Shown: piece after piece, positions 8,292-59,500 of the stretch
How the letters are laid out: the number at the start of each line of letters is the position of its first letter
Position numbering within the stretch: position 1 is the first letter of the stretch
NCBI GenBank assembly: GCA_951812335.1
Contig: OX638293.1
Location: 1,906,731-1,970,730 of the forward strand
Direction of reading: 5' to 3'
Source: Rhodothermales bacterium
Lineage (GTDB): Bacteria; Bacteroidota; Rhodothermia; Rhodothermales; VXPQ01
DNA length: 64,000 nucleotides
The notes under the pieces: model-generated
The model's database searches: none
The model's input: the letters and a program-made list of their open reading frames with translations, nothing else
Told to the model about the DNA's origin: nothing
Program-made: the position numbers and the translations under genes

Positions 8292-9810
8292 GTTTTCCGG
8301 AGCCTTAGTGCTCCGGCCTCATTGAAGCTGTCATCGTTTCGTCTTGCTAGGTTGCGTTTGAGTAACGTTTTCCGGAGCCTTAGTGCTCCGGCCTCATTGA
8401 AGCTCGAGCGCGTAGCCTCGCAGCTGCCTCGAGCGCCAGTGTTTTCCGGAGCCTTAGTGCTCCGGCCTCATTGAAGCACATCCTACACCACCGCTACACA
8501 GGCGTGGCGGTCAAGTTTTCCGGAGCCTTAGTGCTCCGGCCTCATTGAAGCGCTCTGTGCCGTGTTTTGACTAAACACAAAGTATACGTTTTCCGGAGCC
8601 TTAGTGCTCCGGCCTCATTGAAGCCATGGCTATGGCATGAGAACACCGAGGAAACACTACACGTTTTCCGGAGCCTTAGTGCTCCGGCCTCATTGAAGCG
8701 ATAAATATAGGCCCCCTATCATCCCCCTGTATGCGGCGTTTTCCGGAGCCTTAGTGCTCCGGCCTCATTGAAGCTCCGTCAGCTCCGCCGCTTCATCGTA
8801 CGTTCCATCCTGTTTTCCGGAGCCTTAGTGCTCCGGCCTCATTGAAGCTGCAAGCGTTCGGCCTCATAGACTCCCGCATGGCCGCGTTTTCCGGAGCCTT
8901 AGTGCTCCGGCCTCATTGAAGCATGTCAGTTCTTGCCCTCAAACTCGCAAAACCAGTAGTTTTCCGGAGCCTTAGTGCTCCGGCCTCATTGAAGCGTAGC
9001 CAATGCAGCGCAATAGATAGGAGGGCATATCGTTTTCCGGAGCCTTAGTGCTCCGGCCTCATTGAAGCATTAATGGGATAGATGCAATTCTTGGCGCTCT
9101 TGAAGCGTTTTCCGGAGCCTTAGTGCTCCGGCCTCATTGAAGCCCCGTGTTTTGCCGAATTTACTGGGAGGTAAGCCCCGTTTTCCGGAGCCTTAGTGCT
9201 CCGGCCTCATTGAAGCAACCCCGGTAATTACCTCTATTGGGGCGGGGAAAGGTGTTTTCCGGAGCCTTAGTGCTCCGGCCTCATTGAAGCGTGCATGCGA
9301 TACCGCTTTTCTCAGGCGGAGCCAAACGTTTTCCGGAGCCTTAGTGCTCCGGCCTCATTGAAGCCGCCCGTGTCGATCAATGCACTGCCCTAATAGGGGT
9401 GTTTTCCGGAGCCTTAGTGCTCCGGCCTCATTGAAGCCTGTTTGGGCTTACTTCAATATCATCAGGTGGAATAAGTTTTCCGGAGCCTTAGTGCTCCGGC
9501 CTCATTGAAGCCTTTTCCGGCGCGTGCAGCCGGGACCGGTCGTATATGCTTTTCCGGAGCCTTAGTGCTCCGGCCTCATTGAAGCGCCGCCCCGAATCGT
9601 ATGGTGCGCGAGGAGGTCATCCGCGTTTTCCGGAGCCTTAGTGCTCCGGCCTCATTGAAGCAAGTTGATGGCGGCGGTCACCGCATCCCGATGCCTGTGT
9701 TTTCCGGAGCCTTAGTGCTCCGGCCTCATTGAAGCGAAGCTGCCGGCGGGTATCGTGCGATAGAGCCCCAGGGTTTTCCGGAGCCTTAGTGCTCCGGAAA
9801 ACATTGAAGC
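8292..9810 (+). CRISPR. CRISPR array, 21 repeats and 20 spacers, type I-G repeat
   Basis: The 37-bp repeat starts GTTTTCCGGAGCCTTAGTGC and ends TCCGGCCTCATTGAAGC. CCGGAGC and GCTCCGG form a perfect 7-bp stem with a 6-base loop. Repeats start at 8292, 8367, 8441, 8515, 8588, 8663, 8738, 8812, 8886, 8959, 9032, 9107, 9180, 9254, 9328, 9401, 9475, 9549, 9625, 9699 and 9773. Spacers are 36-39 bp and all differ. The repeat at 9549 begins with C instead of G. The last repeat is altered: its CCTC is replaced so that the first 30 bases form a perfect palindrome. The ending CATTGAAGC is what I know from type I-G repeats, agreeing with csx17 and cas4-cas1. No spacer visibly matches elsewhere in the window. 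Confidence 0.98.
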
Positions 9811-10001
9811 CTTCCACTCTGCGGCATGACCGACAGTCGTTACGTCCTTCGTTCAAGGCAAAAGCACTCCGTCGCGACTCGGGCTGCGCCACCGTAGTCA
9901 ATCCGTATCGTTTATCTCCACTCTTGAACCTCTATTAGCCTATAGCATACACCGCTTTCCACAAGCAGCGCCCATTATCGAGACACACGAATATTCACCC
10001 C

Positions 10002-10472
10002 CTACTCCCGCCCCTTAAACAAAACATACGCGGCGAAGGCGCGCCGCTCTGCGAGCGATTCCGCCTCGAAATTCCTGATAGCGTTTTCCGCTTCGTTAAT
10101 CCTCTGAATCGCTTGCGATTTTCGAAATCCGGCGTCTGGAGCGTAATCCGCCCGGTGGCGTTGTTCCTGCATGCGGGCGAACGTCTCGGCGAATACGCGG
10201 ATGTGTGCCGAAAACCGTTTGAGGCTTTCTTTATCGCTGCATCGTGCTTTAGCGGAACGGTGATTCAGCGCCCGATAGGTCAATGTCCAGGTATCCGACC
10301 CGCGACCTGCATGAAGACCGCCTATTAACGTATCCGCGCATGAACCTGCAAGGCAGTGGAACATGGCGTAGTACGCCGTACTGACGGCGCGTTGGAGATT
10401 GGTGTTTCTCGGTTTCCCCTGCCCGGTTGGAATCAATTCCCGCGCCGTCTTGATAAAACTCTCCGGATTCAT
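10002..10472 (-). CDS. HEPN-domain protein, candidate toxin or RNase
   Basis: This 156-residue protein has the HEPN helical pattern: AVSTAYYAMFHCLAG near residue 30 and a later HRADYAPD, the R..ADY signature of UPF0332/HEPN proteins. HEPN proteins are often metal-independent RNases in toxin-antitoxin and defence systems, or partners of nucleotidyltransferase antitoxins. It follows the small acidic gene at 10574-10912 on the same strand, separated by about 100 bp, and lies just beyond the CRISPR array. No nucleotidyltransferase is adjacent, so a type VII MNT-HEPN pair is not supported. The role is inference. Confidence 0.75.
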   Translation of the reverse strand: MNPESFIKTARELIPTGQGKPRNTNLQRAVSTAYYAMFHCLAGSCADTLIGGLHAGRGSDTWTLTYRALNHRSAKARCSDKESLKRFSAHIRVFAETFARMQEQRHRADYAPDAGFRKSQAIQRINEAENAIRNFEAESLAERRAFAAYVLFKGRE

Positions 10473-10573
10473 AGGTCTAATATCTTTAGCCGTATAGAAT
10501 TATCTATAACTATTTATAACATATTCGGCTATTCGACGAAAAAACGGGGGAGAGGCCGCCACAGCCGCCTTCT

Positions 10574-10912
10574 TTACGCCTCTTCTGCCCAATCGGGGAT
10601 GTCGTACGCCGGATCCTCCCACTCGGACTTTTCGATGAACGAAGTGATCGGGTAAGCGGTTATACCGAGTTTCTCCAGTTCGGGATCGATGAATTCGAAC
10701 ATCCTTACCGTCCAGGCAGGATCGAGATTGTCCTGGTCGCCATCGAAAATAATCTGTATCCAGAGGATTTCGTCCCCGTCCTGGTCGAGATCGGGTTTAA
10801 CGATGATGGGATCGAAGGTGAATTCTTCAGGGCTGAAGCGTTTCGCAAGAGCCCGGGCCACAATGTTACTGACCTTGTCCAGGTCCTGCTCCGATATTTT
10901 TGTTCCGATCAT
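10574..10912 (-). CDS. Small acidic protein paired with the HEPN gene
   Basis: This 112-residue, strongly acidic protein (DLDQDGDEILW, FDGDQDNLDPAW, DIPDWAEEA at the end) has no membrane segment or signal peptide. I do not recognise a named family. It precedes the HEPN gene on the same strand, so the two probably form a transcription unit; an antitoxin or partner role is a guess from this arrangement and its acidity. Confidence 0.6.
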   Translation of the reverse strand: MIGTKISEQDLDKVSNIVARALAKRFSPEEFTFDPIIVKPDLDQDGDEILWIQIIFDGDQDNLDPAWTVRMFEFIDPELEKLGITAYPITSFIEKSEWEDPAYDIPDWAEEA

Positions 10913-11113
10913 GATGCTCCCCTCGTAGCTGCATTTTCCAGTAAGAGGTTTCGGTAAGAGGGCACAAGGCGACGACTTGTCGCGCTGCCCTTGCTTGTCC
11001 TATCGAAAAATTACGGATGCCTGCGTTTTCGGTTCCTTCTTCTCGACCTTGTTACAATCAGACCGGAAATTGGACGCAATCCCTTCTGTGCAAGATGTCT
11101 CGCCGCCCCGATG

Positions 11114-11169: not shown

Positions 11170-11214
11170 AACAAAGGCGGTTTGGGTTGATTGGACAGAC
11201 TTTCGTCGAATTTA

Positions 11215-11466
11215 AGGATACTCTGATCAAAACCACTGCGCTCAGCACGTCACGTCCGCAACGTACGGTCACATTCCAGCGTTGAGATCAGCGGGAACTA
11301 CTGCGGATTTTGGGCATTGCGGACGTGACGCGCCCTTCGGGAGGCTGCGAGAAGCACGCTGGCCGCGTCATTCCTCATTATGTGGGACCTGCCACATTGC
11401 TTCGTCATTCCTTGCCAGCGCACCCCTTTCAGCCTCTGGGCTTTGCGGACTTAATCAGAGTATCCT
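11215..11466. repeat. MITE-like element, copy 1 (252 bp)
   Basis: It is bounded by AGGATACTCTGATC on the left and its inverse AATCAGAGTATCCT on the right. The interior closely matches the reverse complement of 27461-27715, including GACGCGCCCTTCGGGAGGC and CATTATGTGGGACCTGCCAC. It has no coding capacity. The flanks suggest a TA or TTAA duplication. Confidence 0.75.
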
Positions 11467-11519
11467 TAAGGTATACTGTTGCGACCTTGTTCCGACCCAA
11501 TCAACCAGAGGAGATCCAT

Positions 11520-34199: not shown

Positions 34200-35672
34200 A
34201 TGCAGAACATTATCCTACTGGCTTACCTCGGCGCTGCCGTGCTCTTCATTCTGGGCATGAAACGGCTGCAATCCCCGGCCACGGCCCGTACGGGAAACAG
34301 GCTTGCCGCCATCGGCATGTTGATTGCCGTCGCGGCGACGCTGTTGCAGCAGCGGATTCTTTCCCCGGTGGAGATGATCGGCGGATTCGTGGTCGGCGCG
34401 GCCGTAGGGATGTTGCTGGCGCGGCGGGTGGCCATGACCAGCATGCCGGAGCTGGTTGCGGTATTCAACGGTTTCGGGGGCTTGGCGTCCGCACTGGTGG
34501 CAGGCGGAGAAATTGCGCGCTATCTGTCCGTTGAGCCGGGAGGCGGTGCAGTGGCTCAAGTCGCCCAGTCCATGGCGGCGCTGGCGCCGCTCGACGTACC
34601 GGAGGCAATCACCGTCGTGCTGTGTATTCTGATCGGCACGATCACGTTTTCGGGAAGTTTTGTCGCGTTCGGCAAGCTGGGCGGGCACCTGAGCGGTAAT
34701 CCCGTTTCGTTTCCGGGCATGCGCGTACTCACGGTACTGGCGGCGCTGGGTGCACTCGGGGCCGGCGGATACCTGATCTACGGGGCAGGCGGCTCGTTTG
34801 AGGCGATGGATATGCAAGCCATTATGTGGGGCGCCTTGGCGCTCGGCTTCCTTTCGCTGGTATTGGGCATTTTCCTCGTCATTCCCATTGGAGGAGCGGA
34901 CATGCCCGTCGTGGTGGCGCTTCTGAATGCCTATTCGGGGCTTGCCGCAGCGGCCACCGGGTTCATGCTCGATAACACGGCGCTTATTGTAAGCGGCGCG
35001 CTGGTCGGTGCATCGGGACTTATCCTGACCTCCATTATGTGCGAAGCAATGAACCGGTCGTTGCTAAACGTACTCCTGGGCGGCTTTGGCGGGGACAACG
35101 ATGGAGGCGGCCCGGCGGTGGAAGGCGCCCGGCCCGACCTGACGGTGCAGGAAACGTCGGTCGAAGATGTGGCCATCCAGTTGACGTATGCCGAGCAGGT
35201 GATCGTTGTGCCCGGCTATGGCATGGCTGTAGCCCAGGCACAGCATCAGGTTCGAGAACTGTCGGATATGCTGCAAGCCCAGGGCGTTACCGTGAAATAC
35301 GCTATTCATCCGGTGGCCGGCCGCATGCCCGGACATATGAATGTATTGCTTGCAGAGGCGGACGTGCCGTACGACCAACTCTACGAAATGGACGATATCA
35401 ATAGCGAATTCGGCATGACGGATGTGTCTCTCGTGATTGGGGCCAACGATGTGGTGAACCCATCGGCGCGTACGGACAAGGCCAGCCCTATCTACGGCAT
35501 GCCCATTCTGGATGTGGATCGTTCCGGCACAGTGGTGGTGCTAAAACGCAGCCTGCGCCCCGGCTATTCCGGCATCGATAACATGTTGTTCTATCACGAT
35601 AACACACGCATGCTTTTCGGAGATGCGAAAGACTCGCTGGCAAAACTTGTAGCGGCCGTAAAAAATCTGTAG
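34200..35672 (+). CDS. pntB: NAD(P) transhydrogenase subunit beta
   Basis: The 490-residue protein has about eight membrane helices and then the NADP-binding domain III (IVVPGYGMAVAQAQHQV, HPVAGRMPGHMNVLLAEA, VIGANDVVNP). With PntAA and PntAB it couples proton flow to NADPH formation in the inner membrane. Confidence 0.96.
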   Translation: MQNIILLAYLGAAVLFILGMKRLQSPATARTGNRLAAIGMLIAVAATLLQQRILSPVEMIGGFVVGAAVGMLLARRVAMTSMPELVAVFNGFGGLASALVAGGEIARYLSVEPGGGAVAQVAQSMAALAPLDVPEAITVVLCILIGTITFSGSFVAFGKLGGHLSGNPVSFPGMRVLTVLAALGALGAGGYLIYGAGGSFEAMDMQAIMWGALALGFLSLVLGIFLVIPIGGADMPVVVALLNAYSGLAAAATGFMLDNTALIVSGALVGASGLILTSIMCEAMNRSLLNVLLGGFGGDNDGGGPAVEGARPDLTVQETSVEDVAIQLTYAEQVIVVPGYGMAVAQAQHQVRELSDMLQAQGVTVKYAIHPVAGRMPGHMNVLLAEADVPYDQLYEMDDINSEFGMTDVSLVIGANDVVNPSARTDKASPIYGMPILDVDRSGTVVVLKRSLRPGYSGIDNMLFYHDNTRMLFGDAKDSLAKLVAAVKNL

Positions 35673-35687
35673 GCGGCTCCAGAAGCG

Positions 35688-35734
35688 TCATTCCCGGGAA
35701 TGCAGCGCTTCAATGACCGGATGGAGTACGCTCC
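35688..35734 (-). pseudogene. Isolated copy of the tesA 3' end
   Basis: Forty-seven base pairs match 38215-38261, the end of the tesA-like gene, with two mismatches. They encode WSVLHPVIEALHSRE plus stop, against WSVLYPVMEALHSRE. Similarity begins exactly at the stop codon and ends abruptly. The fragment and the intact gene, in the same orientation, bracket the symporter-lyase pair. Confidence 0.8.
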
Positions 35735-35736
35735 AT

Positions 35737-37257
35737 TCAAATAGTCACTTCCCCAACATCTTTCTTCTGCTCCCTTCTTGCAATCCGGCTACTCAGCCAA
35801 CCTGTAGCAACACACGTCAGCGTCCCGATTGCGCCGAAAAGCAAGCCATTGATCGACGTAAAAAAGGTGCAGTACGCGAGTGCAGCGGCAGACGCCAGGG
35901 CGCCAATCCACGCATGCAAGGCAGTGGTTCGGCGTGTGAAGATGCCCAGAATAAACAGGCCGCCAAGAGTGCCGAGGAAAAGGCCGGTGATATCCAGAAA
36001 CAGGCCCCAGAGCGCTCGCAGATCCAGGGTACTGATGAGCATTGCACTAACTGTACCAAGGATACCCAGGACGAATACAATCCACTGGGCAAGGCCGAGC
36101 CACTGTTTCTCTTCCCGATCCGGTCGGAAGCGCTTGAAAAAGTCGGTGGTGACCGCAGTCGTGATGGAATGAATCGAAGAATCGAGGCTGGACATGGCGG
36201 CGGCAAACACCCCGGCAATAACCAGACCGCCCAGACCGGCGGGCATTTCCCTGACGATGAACCAGGGCAATAGCTGATCGGGTCTTTCGAGGGTAATGAG
36301 TTGATCCGGAAAGTGCCGATAAAAGACAAAGAGCGCTGTGCCAAGAAAGAAGAACAGGATGGATGCCGGCACAGCAAGCAAAGCACCTGTCCAGATAGCA
36401 TTGCGCGCGGATTGCTCGGTCGGGGTGGTCATATACCGTTGCACGACCGCCTGATCCGTTGTGTAAGGTAGCAGGTTTGTAAAAACCATCCCGAAAAGGA
36501 TGACGAATAGCGAATCACTGTACAGGTCCCAGCCAGGATTAATTAGGTTCCACTTGTCATGCTCGGCGGCTTCCGTAATGATCTGCCCAAATCCGCCGGG
36601 AATATCTGCAGCGATGATGCCCAGTGCAGCGAGCGCTCCGCCGATCAGTACGACGACCTGAATCACATCGGTCCAGATAACGGCTTCCATTCCGCCCAGT
36701 ACGGTGTAGAGCGTACTCAGCAACCCCATGAGAGCGATGCACAGAAAGAGATGCAAGCCCGTTACAGCGCTCAGCGCAAGGGCCGGCAGCAGCAAAACGA
36801 TGCCCATTCTCCCCAGTTGAAACAGGATAAACGAAGCAGAGCCGAGCAAACGCAATGAGACGTCGAAGCGGTTTTCAAGATATTCGTAGGCGCTTGTGAC
36901 GCGAAGCTTTCGGTAAAAAGGCAGGAAAAAGAAGATGACGATCGGGGCAATAAGCGGGATGCCCATATTGACCAGGAAGCGTGTCCAGTCGCTGGCGTAG
37001 GCGGTTGCAGGAATAGAGAGATAGGTGATGGCCGAGAGCATGGTTGCAAAGATGCTCAGGCCTGCTGCCCACCACGGCATTCGTCCTCCGGCGAGAAAGA
37101 AATCCTGCGCCGTACCGGTTCGCCGGGAAAAGTAAATGCCCATGGCAACGAGCAAGGCGATGTAAACGCCCAGCACTATGCCGTTTACGGGCCCAAAGGA
37201 GCTGGCTTCCTGCGCCAGACCGGTGATCAGGAAGTGTGTCAAGGCTTCATGGTTCAT
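35737..37257 (-). CDS. Sodium:solute symporter (SSS family), probable sialic acid transporter
   Basis: From the ATG at 37257 the protein has 506 residues and about 13 membrane helices, with SSS features such as FFLAGGRMPWWAAGLSIFAT and GLGGLVIAGVFAAAMSSLDS. It overlaps the stop of the upstream lyase by one base (TAATG), so the two are coupled. With a neuraminate-lyase-like partner the substrate is probably N-acetylneuraminate or a related sugar acid; that is inference from context. Confidence 0.88.
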   Translation of the reverse strand: MNHEALTHFLITGLAQEASSFGPVNGIVLGVYIALLVAMGIYFSRRTGTAQDFFLAGGRMPWWAAGLSIFATMLSAITYLSIPATAYASDWTRFLVNMGIPLIAPIVIFFFLPFYRKLRVTSAYEYLENRFDVSLRLLGSASFILFQLGRMGIVLLLPALALSAVTGLHLFLCIALMGLLSTLYTVLGGMEAVIWTDVIQVVVLIGGALAALGIIAADIPGGFGQIITEAAEHDKWNLINPGWDLYSDSLFVILFGMVFTNLLPYTTDQAVVQRYMTTPTEQSARNAIWTGALLAVPASILFFFLGTALFVFYRHFPDQLITLERPDQLLPWFIVREMPAGLGGLVIAGVFAAAMSSLDSSIHSITTAVTTDFFKRFRPDREEKQWLGLAQWIVFVLGILGTVSAMLISTLDLRALWGLFLDITGLFLGTLGGLFILGIFTRRTTALHAWIGALASAAALAYCTFFTSINGLLFGAIGTLTCVATGWLSSRIARREQKKDVGEVTI

Positions 37258-38177
37258 TACGATGGACGCTGCAGATCGACGTTTTCGAAAATAGCCAACG
37301 CCCTGACCTCTTCGTAAAGAGACTGTTTCCGGTTGGCGGAAAGCGGCGTCAGCGGCAGCCTGACTTCGCCGCAATCGACGCCGCGCATGGCCATGATAGC
37401 TTTGCCGGCCCGGATTACGCCGTGTTTAAGCAACACTTCGACAAGAGCTACCGCGTGGTCGGCAAAGCGCCGGGCCGTTTCCATATCTCCCTGTTTAAAT
37501 GCTTCCATCATCCATACATAATTCGGCGCCGCGTAGTTGTAGGTGCTGCCCACAGCCCCTTCCGCTCCCATCGCCAGCGCGCCCAGGAGCATCTCGTCCG
37601 ACCCGAAAAGCATCGTATACCGGCCGGATTCCATCGCCGTACAGCGGTGGAATTGCATCAAGTCGCTTGCCGAAAACTTGACGCCCGACAGGGTGGGTAT
37701 GCGCTTGCCGCCGACACGCAAAAATTCGGGCATGGACAGGTTAACGCCGGTCATGGAGGGGATGTGGTAGTAGAAAAAGGGCAACGCCGGCGCTGCTTCG
37801 GCAACAGCTGCGCAATACTCGACCAGGCCATCGAGGGAGTCCGGCTTGAAAAACGAAGGAGCAAGCGCCGCGATGCCGTGCGCCCGGATCGATTGGGCGT
37901 GCTTGGCCAATCTGCGTGCTTCATATACGCTGTTGTGGCCTGCGTGTACGATAACAGGCAATTTGCCTCCGGCATGAGCGACCCATTGCTCTGCCAGTAA
38001 CATGCGTTCATCCACGGTCAAAGAGGCGCCTTCTCCCGTTGTACCGCAGATAAAAACACCGGCAACTCCTTCTTTTTGCAGATGATCGACCATATCCGGG
38101 ACGATGCCGGGGTTTACGCTGCCATCCGGGTGCATAGGAGTGTACGGAGCTGCGATCAGGCCGGTAAGTTTTTCCAT
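37257..38177 (-). CDS. nanA: N-acetylneuraminate lyase-like aldolase (DapA/NanA family)
   Basis: At 306 residues it has the family motifs FICGTTGEGASLT, FYYHIPSMTGVNL (catalytic Tyr region, closer to NanA than DapA) and LSGVKFSASDL with the Schiff-base lysine. NanA splits sialic acid into N-acetylmannosamine and pyruvate. It is followed by the symporter with a one-base overlap. A DHDPS-like or other keto-acid aldolase function cannot be excluded. Confidence 0.83.
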   Translation of the reverse strand: MEKLTGLIAAPYTPMHPDGSVNPGIVPDMVDHLQKEGVAGVFICGTTGEGASLTVDERMLLAEQWVAHAGGKLPVIVHAGHNSVYEARRLAKHAQSIRAHGIAALAPSFFKPDSLDGLVEYCAAVAEAAPALPFFYYHIPSMTGVNLSMPEFLRVGGKRIPTLSGVKFSASDLMQFHRCTAMESGRYTMLFGSDEMLLGALAMGAEGAVGSTYNYAAPNYVWMMEAFKQGDMETARRFADHAVALVEVLLKHGVIRAGKAIMAMRGVDCGEVRLPLTPLSANRKQSLYEEVRALAIFENVDLQRPS

Positions 38178-38214
38178 ATCGGGCTATTGTGTATCTGTAT
38201 GGAGCGTCATGCTC

Positions 38215-38964
38215 TCATTCCCGGGAATGCAGCGCTTCCATGACCGGATAGAGTACGCTCCAGACGTTTTCCGCAACGATCCGATGCCCGGATTCGTTCG
38301 GATGGATGCCGTCCATCTGCATGAGAGAATCCACGCCCCCTACGCCCTCGAGAAGAAAGGGAATCAGGTGGGTATTTTCCATACTGGTCAGCGTCGGGTA
38401 GATTTTCTGGAATGCCCGGGTGTAGTCCTGTCCGAGATTGGGCGGAATTTGCATACCGGCAAGAATAATCTCCATGTTCGGGTTCGCGGTGCGCGCCTTC
38501 TCGATAATCGCCTGCAGGTTGCTTTGCGTAACCTCTACCGGGATACCCCGTAAACCATCGTTCCCGCCTAACTCCAGCACAAGGATACGCACCGGATACT
38601 GTTGCAAATACCAGTCTATGCGCCGCAAACCTCCCGCGCTCGTCTCTCCGCTTAATCCGGCATTAATCGCCCGCACATCCCAGTCCAGGGAATCCATGCG
38701 ATGTTGTATGAGTGCAGGAAAAGCGCTTGCGGGATCGACCCCTGCTCCTGCAGAAAGGCTGTTGCCCAGAAAGAGAACGATCGTAGCCGGCTTTTCCGCA
38801 TTTTCTGTGTGCTCCGCGCCTTGGCTATCGTTTTGCCTCACCGCAGAGGAGACATTATTCCCGTCCGGAGCAGTCGTTCCGGTTCCCGTGTCCGTATCCC
38901 GGGATCCGCAGGCGAGGCACAGAACAGGAATGCAGGCAAGCAGGTATAGTTTGCCGATTTTCAT
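38215..38964 (-). CDS. tesA: Arylesterase/lysophospholipase, SGNH hydrolase (TesA-like lipoprotein)
   Basis: From the ATG at 38964 the 249-residue protein has a lipoprotein signal (LLACIPVLCLAC) and an acidic/Thr-rich linker, then the SGNH blocks: FLGNSLSAGAG (catalytic Ser), INAGLSGETSAGG, LELGGNDGLRG (Asn) and DGIHPNESGH (Asp/His). It cleaves acyl or aryl esters, probably in the periplasm. It is divergent from the ybbA-like gene, as in the E. coli tesA-ybbAP locus. Confidence 0.92.
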   Translation of the reverse strand: MKIGKLYLLACIPVLCLACGSRDTDTGTGTTAPDGNNVSSAVRQNDSQGAEHTENAEKPATIVLFLGNSLSAGAGVDPASAFPALIQHRMDSLDWDVRAINAGLSGETSAGGLRRIDWYLQQYPVRILVLELGGNDGLRGIPVEVTQSNLQAIIEKARTANPNMEIILAGMQIPPNLGQDYTRAFQKIYPTLTSMENTHLIPFLLEGVGGVDSLMQMDGIHPNESGHRIVAENVWSVLYPVMEALHSRE

Positions 38965-55781: not shown

Positions 55782-56149
55782 ATGCGCATATACGGATGTT
55801 GCATGTATTTATCGTACAGATACGTTTTTATACGGAACACGTTCGCCATAGCAGGTTTTCCGGCCGTCGGGTATTAGAAATGGTCCGCAAAAACCGGACA
55901 GTTTTTACACGGTTTTAAGCGTAGCGGTGCTTCGGATAGATGCTCGAAGGACCATAAGGCGCATCGTACGACACGGCTTCCGACGATACGAACGCCTTGC
56001 GCCTGGAGCAACCGGAGATCGTCTCATAGGGCTTGAGCCGCCTTAAAATCTATGCCGTGTTTGGGGAAATTGCGCTCGCTTTCTCTGGGATCGGATTCGA
56101 ATTGCATAACGATACAGGGAGATTAAGTGCGCCTGCAATTCACCATTTT
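55782..56149. other. Non-coding stretch before the palindrome array
   Basis: No convincing reading frame, RNA or repeat was seen here. A region near 55980-56060 reads like a fragment of coding sequence with stops, possibly an old mobile-element remnant, but I cannot name it. Confidence 0.35.
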
Positions 56150-56220
56150 GAGTAAAAAATACTCCTAAAAAGAGTAGAAATTACTCCTAAAAGGTATAAA
56201 AATTACTCAAAAAGGATAAA
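56150..56220. promoter_or_regulatory. Array of GAGTA-N5-TACTC palindromes
   Basis: GAGTA-AAAAA-TACTC at 56150-56164 and GAGTA-GAAAT-TACTC at 56172-56186 are perfect palindromes exactly 22 bp apart. A third, degraded unit follows 22 bp on (TACTC at 56204). The stretch is very AT-rich against its surroundings. It looks like a multi-dimer operator, about 330 bp upstream of the large secreted protein gene. Confidence 0.45.
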
Positions 56221-56238
56221 AACGGATCATTGGTAGCC

Positions 56239-56330
56239 CGGCGAATTCCGCCGACGCGCTGTCGCTGCGCACGGCGGCAAGGGTTGCCTTCGCCTCGAAC
56301 GAAGGACTGTGGGTTCGGGACATCGCGGGC
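56239..56330 (-). mobile_element. IS3-family orfA start remnant
   Basis: On the minus strand an ATG is followed by SRTHSPSFEAKATLAAV, the typical OrfA start; it then degenerates within about 15 codons. The DNA matches the first codons of the cyclase gene at 11.5 kb. A copy of GGGAGGCTGCGAGGGGCA, also found inside the MITE-like elements, lies next to it. Confidence 0.5.
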
Positions 56331-56545
56331 GGGAAGTGGCCTTTGGGAGGCTGCGAGGGGCATTTCGGGCAGCGGCCCGAGATCGTGTAATAGCCGAACT
56401 CTTCGAACACAACGAGGGGCGCCTCACCAGACGCTTGACAACAGAAAAGCGGCGCCCTGCCTTGCCGCACAGTGAAAATACTTCTCGCAACTTTTATGTA
56501 TAATTCCCTTGGCAAAGATGTGGTAATCCATCTCACAGGAAGCGG

Positions 56546-59500
56546 ATGCACAGGACGAAGCGGCGACGGCGATACGCCCTCTGCAATACGTCGGTGAGGT
56601 TTTTCAATATCTGTGCGTTATTGCTCGGCGTCCTGTTGCTTACCGGGCTGAGCCCCGTCCCTTCGCCCGCCACATTCAAAGCGCTCGTCTTCTCGAAAAC
56701 GGTTGGCTTCCGCCATGCCTCCATACCCAATGGCATCGCTGCAGTACGCGACTTGGCCACACAAGAGGGCTTCGCCGTAGATGCTACCGAAGACGCTGCC
56801 GCTTTCACCGACGCCAACCTCGCGCAATACCAGGTCGTTATCTTCCTCAACACCACCGGCGACGTGCTGAATACCGTGCAGCAAGCTGCCTTCGAGCGTT
56901 TCATTCGCGCCGGTAAAGGCTACGTCGGGGTTCATTCGGCAGCGGATACCGAATACAATTGGCCATTCTACGGCGGCCTGGTAGGAGCTTATTTCCAGAG
57001 CCATCCTGCCATTCGGACAGCGACCGTAAAGGTGGCCGATGCCGTGCATCCCTCGACAGAGATGCTGCCCAAACGCTGGCAACGTACAGACGAATGGTAC
57101 AACTTCCGGCACAACCCGCGCGGCGAGGTGCATGTGCTGGCCACCCTTGATGAGTCATCCTACACAGGCGGCGGCATGGGAAGAGACCACCCGATTATGT
57201 GGTGCCACGACTATGAAGGGGGGCGATCCTGGTATACTGCCGGAGGACACACAGAGGGGAGTTACAGCGAGCCGGCGTATCGCGAACACCTGCTGCAGGG
57301 CATTCGATACGCCGCCGGGATGGCGCCGGGCGATTGCGGCGCCACCGTCAACGGGTATTTCGAGAAGGCGATCCTCGATGCCAATACAGACAACCCGATG
57401 GACCTGGCCGTAGCGCCGGACGGACGCGTTTTCTTCGTGGAGCGAGCGGGCACGCTACGCCTGTATACGCCAGGTACCGGGCTCACCACCACCGTGGCGG
57501 CCCTGCCCGTCGTAACGAGTAACGAAGACGGTCTTCTCGGCATTGTGCTCGACCCGGACTTTGCCGATAACGGCTGGATATACCTCTTCTATTCGCCTGC
57601 CGGCGACGTGGCGAAGCAGCATGTTTCGCGTTTTACGCTGGTCGGTAATCGGCTGGACCTGGCTTCTGAGCAGGTGCTCCTGGAGATTCCGGTGCAACGC
57701 GAACAGTGTTGCCATTCCGCAGGATCGATGGTATTCGATGGTGCAGGCAACCTCTTTGTCGCCACAGGGGACAACACGAATCCATTCGAGTCGGATGGAT
57801 TCGCACCGATCGACGAGCGCCGCGGCCGGGCGGCGTGGGATGCGCAAGGAACGTCAGGCAACATGAACGACCTGCGGGGCAAAATACTGCGTATCGCCCC
57901 GCAAGCCGACGGCAGCTACACGATCCCTGCCGGCAACCTTTTCCCGGCCGACGGATCTGCAGGACGTCCCGAGATCTACGTGATGGGCGTACGTAATCCT
58001 TTTCGCATCGCCTTCGACACGGAGACCGACCGGCTCTATTGGGGCGACATAGGCCCTGACGCCGGCGCACCGCTATCGAGCCGTGGCCCCGAAGGACTCG
58101 ACGAATGGAATCGGACGCGCACGGCCGGCAACTATGGCTGGCCTTATTGCATTGGCCAGAACCGGGCCTACGTGGATTACAACTTCGCCACCGGCGCATC
58201 CGGTGCGCCGTTCAACTGCAACGCTCCCGTCAACAATTCGCCTAACAACACAGGCGGGGTCGATCTGCCGCCTGCGAAGCCGGCGTGGATATGGTATCCC
58301 TACGCTCCCTCGTCCACATTTCCGGCCCTTAACGATGGCGTGGGGCGCGCGGCGATGTCCGGACCGGTGTATCACTTCGACCCCGACCTTGACTCCAAAA
58401 CCAGGCTCCCCGCTTACTACGACGACACCGTCTTTATCTTTGAATGGTCCCGGAACTGGATCCGCGAGGTGAAGCTCGACGACGACGGCGAGATACTTGT
58501 CATCAATCCCTTTGCGGAAGATATCGAACTGCTGCGGCCTATTACGATGAAAGCCGGACCGGATGGAGCGCTTTACCTGTTGGAGTGGGGTACAGGTTTT
58601 GGCGGCGACAACAACGACTCGAAGCTCGTGCGTATCGACTATGTGCGCGGCACGCGCGCGCCGGTAGCCGTTCTTAGCGCCGAGCCGACTTCCGGGCCCG
58701 TGCCGCTAACCGTGCAATTCTCCAGCAGAGACTCCTTTGACCCCGATCCGGACGACAGGCTTACCTTTTCCTGGGATCTCGACGGCGACGGTACGGAGGA
58801 CGCTACGGACCCGAATCCTGTCTACACCTACAACACGCCAGGCACATTCACCGCCCGGTTGACGGTTACCGACGCCACCGATAACAAGGCAACGGCGTCG
58901 GTCGATATCATCGCAGGGAATACCAGGCCCTCGATCGCGCTCACGGACCCCGTGGACGGCGGTTTCTTCGACTGGGGCGACCGGGTGGCGTTTGCCTTCA
59001 GCGTGAACGACGCAGAGGATGGCGCTACCGCAGACGGTACGCTCGGCTGCGACGAGACGATCTTCCAGCCCTTTATCGGCCACAACGATCACAGTCATCC
59101 GCTCGACCAGTTCAATGCCTGTGAAGGCGTGATGGCAATTATCGACGCCCACGGCGGGCCTGCCGACAACCTGTTTTATATCGTCGAGGCCAGCTATACC
59201 GACAGCGGAGTAGGCAGCGCGGGTGCGCTCACAGCACGGACGCAGCATATCCTGCATCCTAAACGCCTTGAGGCCGAGCACTTCACGACGAATCATGGCG
59301 TCCTGCTCGAAAGAAGCGGTGACGTGCTGGGCGGGGGGCAAAACATTGGCTACATCGAACACGGCGATTATGTCTCCTGGACGCCCGTCAACCTGAAAAA
59401 CATCGGATTTGTCACATTCCGTGTCGCCTCGGCAGGGTTCGGCGGACGCATCGAAATACGCATCGATAGCCCCGACGGACCGCTTATCGGCAAAACGCAC

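Follow-up and report, generated by a model that had tools for sequence, protein, structure and literature searches.

In the genome of a Rhodothermales bacterium (G000), a cassette of two genes, predicted to encode a sodium/solute symporter and an N-acetylneuraminate lyase, is bracketed by two direct copies of the end of the adjacent gene tesA. Our comparison of relatives indicates that the extra copy was very probably gained later than the cassette, and in the lineage of G000 only. The locus would probably reflect two unrelated and superimposed events, a clade-wide gain of the cassette and then, only in G000, the rewriting of a spacer by a copied tesA end. These conclusions derive from sequence comparisons within a family of six genomes, all from one genus, with one genome compared per species. 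Coordinates refer to the window, i.e., the whole 64,000-nt stretch of G000 that was analyzed.

The tesA End Is Present Twice

The left neighbor of the cassette, convergent with it, is a pntB-like ORF for a transhydrogenase beta subunit (34200–35672, + strand), whose adjacency to tesA is conserved in empty sites. It is followed by a 15-nt spacer, GCGGCTCCAGAAGCG (35673–35687), the first 10 nt of which agree with the sequence flanking pntB in relatives that have the cassette, and by a 48-nt copy of the tesA end (35688–35735, − strand). The cassette itself, delimited by ORF, domain and homology searches, comprises on the − strand the genes for a symporter of 506 aa (35737–37257) and for a lyase of 306 aa (37257–38177). 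A second spacer, of 37 nt (38178–38214), runs from the lyase start to the stop of the tesA-like gene (38215–38964, − strand), which by domain search encodes a TesA-like GDSL/SGNH hydrolase of 249 aa with a lipoprotein-like N terminus.

The two copies of the direct repeat, 35688–35735 and 38215–38262, are identical in 46 of 48 nt and lie 2527 nt apart from start to start. The first-pass annotation had reported a 47-bp copy with two mismatches; the repeat is real and the number of mismatches correct, while its length is 48 nt. The right copy, the putative source, is the last 48 nt of the tesA-like gene on the − strand, with the complement of the stop codon, TCA, at 38215–38217 and a coding end that reads WSVLYPVMEALHSRE-stop; the left copy translates as WSVLHPVIEALHSRE-stop, begins 15 nt past the pntB stop and finishes 1 nt short of the complement of the symporter stop (35737–35739). 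A repeat search of the window allowing up to three mismatches retrieved only these two sites (shuffling expectation, 0.00), the 15-mer TCATTCCCGGGAATG occurs twice in the 2,686,407-base (2.69-Mb) genome, both times in the repeat copies, and the number of 46/48 matches expected by chance over the whole genome is about 2e-17. With two copies genome-wide, the 48-mer is not a dispersed repeat or a member of a REP-like family.

A hairpin region that includes the left copy is predicted between the two convergent genes. Folding of this region is modest (z −2.5 on the + strand and −0.75 on the cassette strand) and a terminator scan lists no intrinsic terminator there, so that this possible function was discarded. 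The copy places a predicted hairpin in the convergent spacer, and any role that this might have is a by-product.

A search of the genome for other gene-end copies bracketing genes had been suggested; we found no other near-identical, non-tandem pair of this kind in 264 contiguous kb (the window and the adjoining 100 kb to its left and right). The remaining repeats in these 264 kb are a dispersed element, a near-identical pair of 991 bp, a CRISPR array and tandem duplications. The CRISPR array (8292–9735) contains 20 repeats matching Rfam CRISPR-DR16. Beside it, the segment at 9993–10983 (991 bp), which is probably an insertion sequence, is 98.8% identical to a copy located about 15.5 kb upstream, outside the window.

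The Lyase-Symporter Pair

The genes between the copies had been described as of the sialic acid type, and homology searches bear this out. The lyase contains PF00701, and a search of solved structures ranks three N-acetylneuraminate lyases (NALs) or putative NALs first (5afd, 6h4e, and 6arh; E 3.2e-84 with the N-acetylneuraminate lyase 5afd), far ahead of DapA; we assign it to this class on its DHDPS/NAL fold and on NAL, rather than DapA, being the best match, with NCBIfam scores that fall under the equivalog cut-offs. The symporter belongs to the SSF family (PF00474) and among solved structures is closest to 5nv9 (phmmer E 4.5e-107 vs. 1.4e-52 for the next), labeled "putative sodium:solute symporter" in the structure table and which we take to be SiaT from Proteus mirabilis. 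Its family and this closest relationship to a solved SiaT-type symporter place it in the SiaT type. The predicted role of the pair, sialic acid uptake and cleavage, is well supported by homology. Consistent with it, the homologs in the order-level relative G016 lie in a cluster with ORFs for a BNR-repeat protein, a fused kelch-symporter and an N-acylglucosamine 2-epimerase-like protein, and the G013 symporter likewise has a kelch-like part fused at its N terminus (domain names in these two genomes were read off the sequences rather than taken from a domain scan).

The cassette shares with SiaT/NanA-type pairs the combination of a Na+/solute symporter and an N-acetylneuraminate lyase, with 5nv9 and 5afd as best solved matches. 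It differs from SiaT/NanA-type uptake clusters in having only two genes, without a fused kelch domain or an adjacent epimerase or sialidase; elsewhere, the G000 genome has a gene of the epimerase family and another that is weakly sialidase-like. Among the congeners tested (G005 outside the set), all have a gene of the GlcNAc 2-epimerase family, with or without the cassette, and NanE was not found in any. A sialidase-like BNR match above cut-off, to a 410-residue protein, occurs in the carriers G000, G003, and G004 (L222, L221, and L223) and in neither of the cassette-less congeners G001 and G002, a pattern that is no more than suggestive. Carriage of the cassette by plasmids was discarded, as records in the plasmid set gave only short matches and none matched more than 4% of the cassette stretch.

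Empty Sites and Cassette-Bearing Relatives

In the congeners G001 and G002, tesA comes directly after pntB, the stops being separated by about 14 nt, and four genomes of other families (G016, G012, G009, and G028) also show this adjacency without the cassette, just as the first-pass annotation had anticipated for relatives lacking the cassette. These empty junctions indicate that the cassette is an insertion, which, from its distribution, would have been gained on the stem of G000, G003, G004, and G005, or else lost in G001 and G002.

The other carriers are G003, G004, and G005 (contig JANQSQ010000048.1, L076). In all of them pntB adjoins the symporter; the complete order pntB-symporter-lyase-tesA is found in G003 and G004, and the contig of G005 stops inside the symporter. 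The tesA-end copy is absent beside the symporter in these three carriers (3/3). The pntB/symporter spacer of G005 has 26 nt (GCGGCGCCAGTACAGGCAGAGTATCC), the spacer of G003 aligns with it and has in addition a short hairpin, and in that of G004 both ends are preserved, with about 60 nt of unrelated sequence inserted between them. Since the spacers of G005 and G003 align and G004 shares both ends, the ancestral spacer would have been short and copy-free. Unrelated inserts sit at the same spot in G003 and G004, and the pntB/symporter spacer appears as a site rewritten separately in three lineages.

Further candidates were rejected. The spacers of G003 and G004 resemble tesA ends no more than shuffled sequences do (p 0.5–0.8), leaving no signal of an eroded copy; the G004 tail GGAGTATCCTTAAA is likewise not an eroded copy, and corresponds instead to the terminal repeat of a dispersed element. 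The G004 insert, evaluated as another templated copy, has no convincing source (a 30-nt match of 83% inside tesA, E 0.03).

The dispersed element defines a MITE-like family, about 260 bp in length, whose inverted ends are TTTAAGGATACTC...GAGTATCCTTAAA (window 11212–11469; L225–L254) and which is also present in congeners; its ends, with one mismatch at most, were found 46 times in G000 vs. 0 control matches. The end of the ancestral spacer contains the terminal-repeat motif of this family. In G005 (L076, 6770–6800) and G004 (L063, 4137–4229) the symporter stop codon overlaps the terminal repeat, and therefore a remnant of the element abuts the 3′ edge of the cassette.

Age of the Copy

The quartet ((G000,G004),(G003,G005)) is favored by 286 sites vs. 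16 and 23 in the flanking 6.7 kb, and by 63 sites vs. 3 and 2 in the cassette (symporter). Because cassette and flanks give one quartet tree, the cassette would have been inherited by the whole clade; together with the copy-free ancestral spacer, this dates the origin of the copy, in G000, to after the split from G004. Between the copy and its own gene there are 2 differences in 48 positions, and the match of the copy to the tesA end of G004 is only 90%. From the two differences and the tesA rates, and assuming that the copy evolves at the synonymous rate, its age would amount to a fraction of about 0.23 of the time elapsed from the G000/G004 split (95% range 0.03–0.81). The recent event that had been postulated from the near identity of the repeats is thus that of the copy, dated very roughly to a quarter of that time, and not that of the cassette, which is older.

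As originally noticed, similarity without gaps begins at the stop codon. Compared with tesA from G003, however, the match of the left copy runs 5 further bases beyond the stop (TGACGCT), and ACGCT also occurs in tesA from G000, 8 nt further on, so that the apparent start of similarity exactly at the stop may be due to a small indel. The diagnostic bases of the copy conflict: CAT (His) and the post-stop ACGCT are common to tesA from G003 and not to the G000 and G004 genes, whereas CTG is common to G000 alone, and they do not settle the source of the copy.

In two blocks of the window, 36100–38440 and 56000–59000, G000 and G004 are closer than in adjacent sequence, suggesting allelic exchange between congeneric lineages.

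Possible Origins of the Copy

We propose that the ancestor of G000, G003, G004, and G005 would have gained the lyase-symporter pair between the convergent pntB and tesA genes, with no duplication surviving at either edge, and that the pair would then have been inherited with its flanks. Subsequently, in G000 only, the ancestral spacer would have lost about 16 nt and received in their place about 53 nt from the tesA end, copied over a distance of 2.5 kb. As to mechanism, we lean toward a short ectopic templated insertion, most likely by a template switch during repair or replication. The first 10 nt of the G000 spacer are ancestral and are followed by about 53 nt of tesA-end sequence, in the same orientation as the source and reaching to 1 nt from the symporter stop, and the template is intact; copying of this stretch in one template-switch or ectopic-repair event is the simplest single event. 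Breakage at the MITE-like element could, conjecturally, have opened the spacer to repair. Several points count against this proposal: the CAT and ACGCT shared with tesA from G003 mean that the source allele may predate the G000 and G004 genes; the 15 nt from the pntB stop to the copied tesA stop resemble the 14 nt of empty sites, which would suit a remnant of a cassette-less allele; the right junction of the copy shows no clear microhomology; and each species is represented by one genome.

The copy could also be the scar of a tandem duplication in G000 of the symporter, the lyase and the tesA end, followed by loss of the first symporter and lyase so that a tesA end was left beside pntB. We consider this possible, at a clearly lower probability: the junction of the tesA end and the symporter stop (CTCCA/TTCA) is as expected of a tandem-duplication joint, and the 10-nt remnant on the pntB side followed by AAGCG resembles a deletion joint, but two events are required, no intermediate is seen, and a single template switch gives the same sequence.

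It is unlikely that the left copy is the own tesA end of a cassette-less G000 allele that recombined with a cassette-bearing relative near G004. Besides the geometry reminiscent of empty sites, this explanation draws on an excess of G000-G004 similarity in a block at about 36.1/36.6–38.44 kb, which ranks top of 110 windows, and on G000-G004 dS values of 0.23–0.28 in the symporter, lyase and tesA genes vs. 0.33–0.41 in larger flanking genes. The log-likelihood gain of the block is 17 against 10.2 for the best of 60 shuffles, which ignore autocorrelation. However, a second block at about 56–59 kb shows the same excess, pntA2 has a dS of 0.24, the estimated left breakpoint falls inside the symporter and not at the copy, and the internal branch of the quartet is alike in cassette and flank. 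Similarly unlikely is a broader version in which the cassette would have been repeatedly lost and regained at this locus by recombination between related species, the spacer recording each exchange and the copy being what is left of a cassette-less allele.

Finally, the first-pass reading of the copy as an integration footprint, i.e., as the attachment-site duplicate of a cassette that entered at the tesA end carrying its own gene-end copy, is very improbable: direct repeats in the expected orientation do enclose the two added genes and nothing else, and empty sites exist, but all three other cassette-bearing congeners lack the duplicate, the very observation named beforehand as refuting it, and two of them keep the short conserved spacer, the lyase and symporter are the sole ORFs between the repeats, confirming the reported absence of an integrase or other recombinase gene, the plasmid set contains no extensive match, the copy is younger than the cassette, and to rescue this reading two lineages would each have to have lost the copy precisely and independently, or G000 to have re-acquired it on its own.

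Comparison With Known Systems

Genomic islands integrate at the 3′ ends of genes, such as those for tRNAs, icd and guaA. The locus of G000 resembles these islands in that a direct repeat of the gene end brackets the added genes and in that relatives have an unoccupied site where the gene end is single and intact (G001, G002, G009, G012, G016, and G028); it differs in the lack of an integrase and in that insert-bearing relatives have no repeat, which is found at both edges only in G000. The templated insertion that we favor resembles short insertions by template switching (MMBIR-type; e.g., PMC8421209, on human cells) in that a few tens of nucleotides from close by would have been copied into a spacer that was rewritten, with the difference that the mechanism is here deduced from one junction only. 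For bacteria, literature searches on gene-end islands and on templated insertion returned nothing directly usable.

The locus shows, as a worked example, how misleading a gene-end duplicate around an insertion can be: in one genome it has the look of an attachment scar, and three relatives reveal its later origin. No new system is implied. The rearrangement is an ordinary local one, next to catabolic genes that form a pair of a known type. For the Rhodothermales, our comparison documents a sialic acid uptake and lyase pair that was gained, or lost in sister species, inside a single genus.
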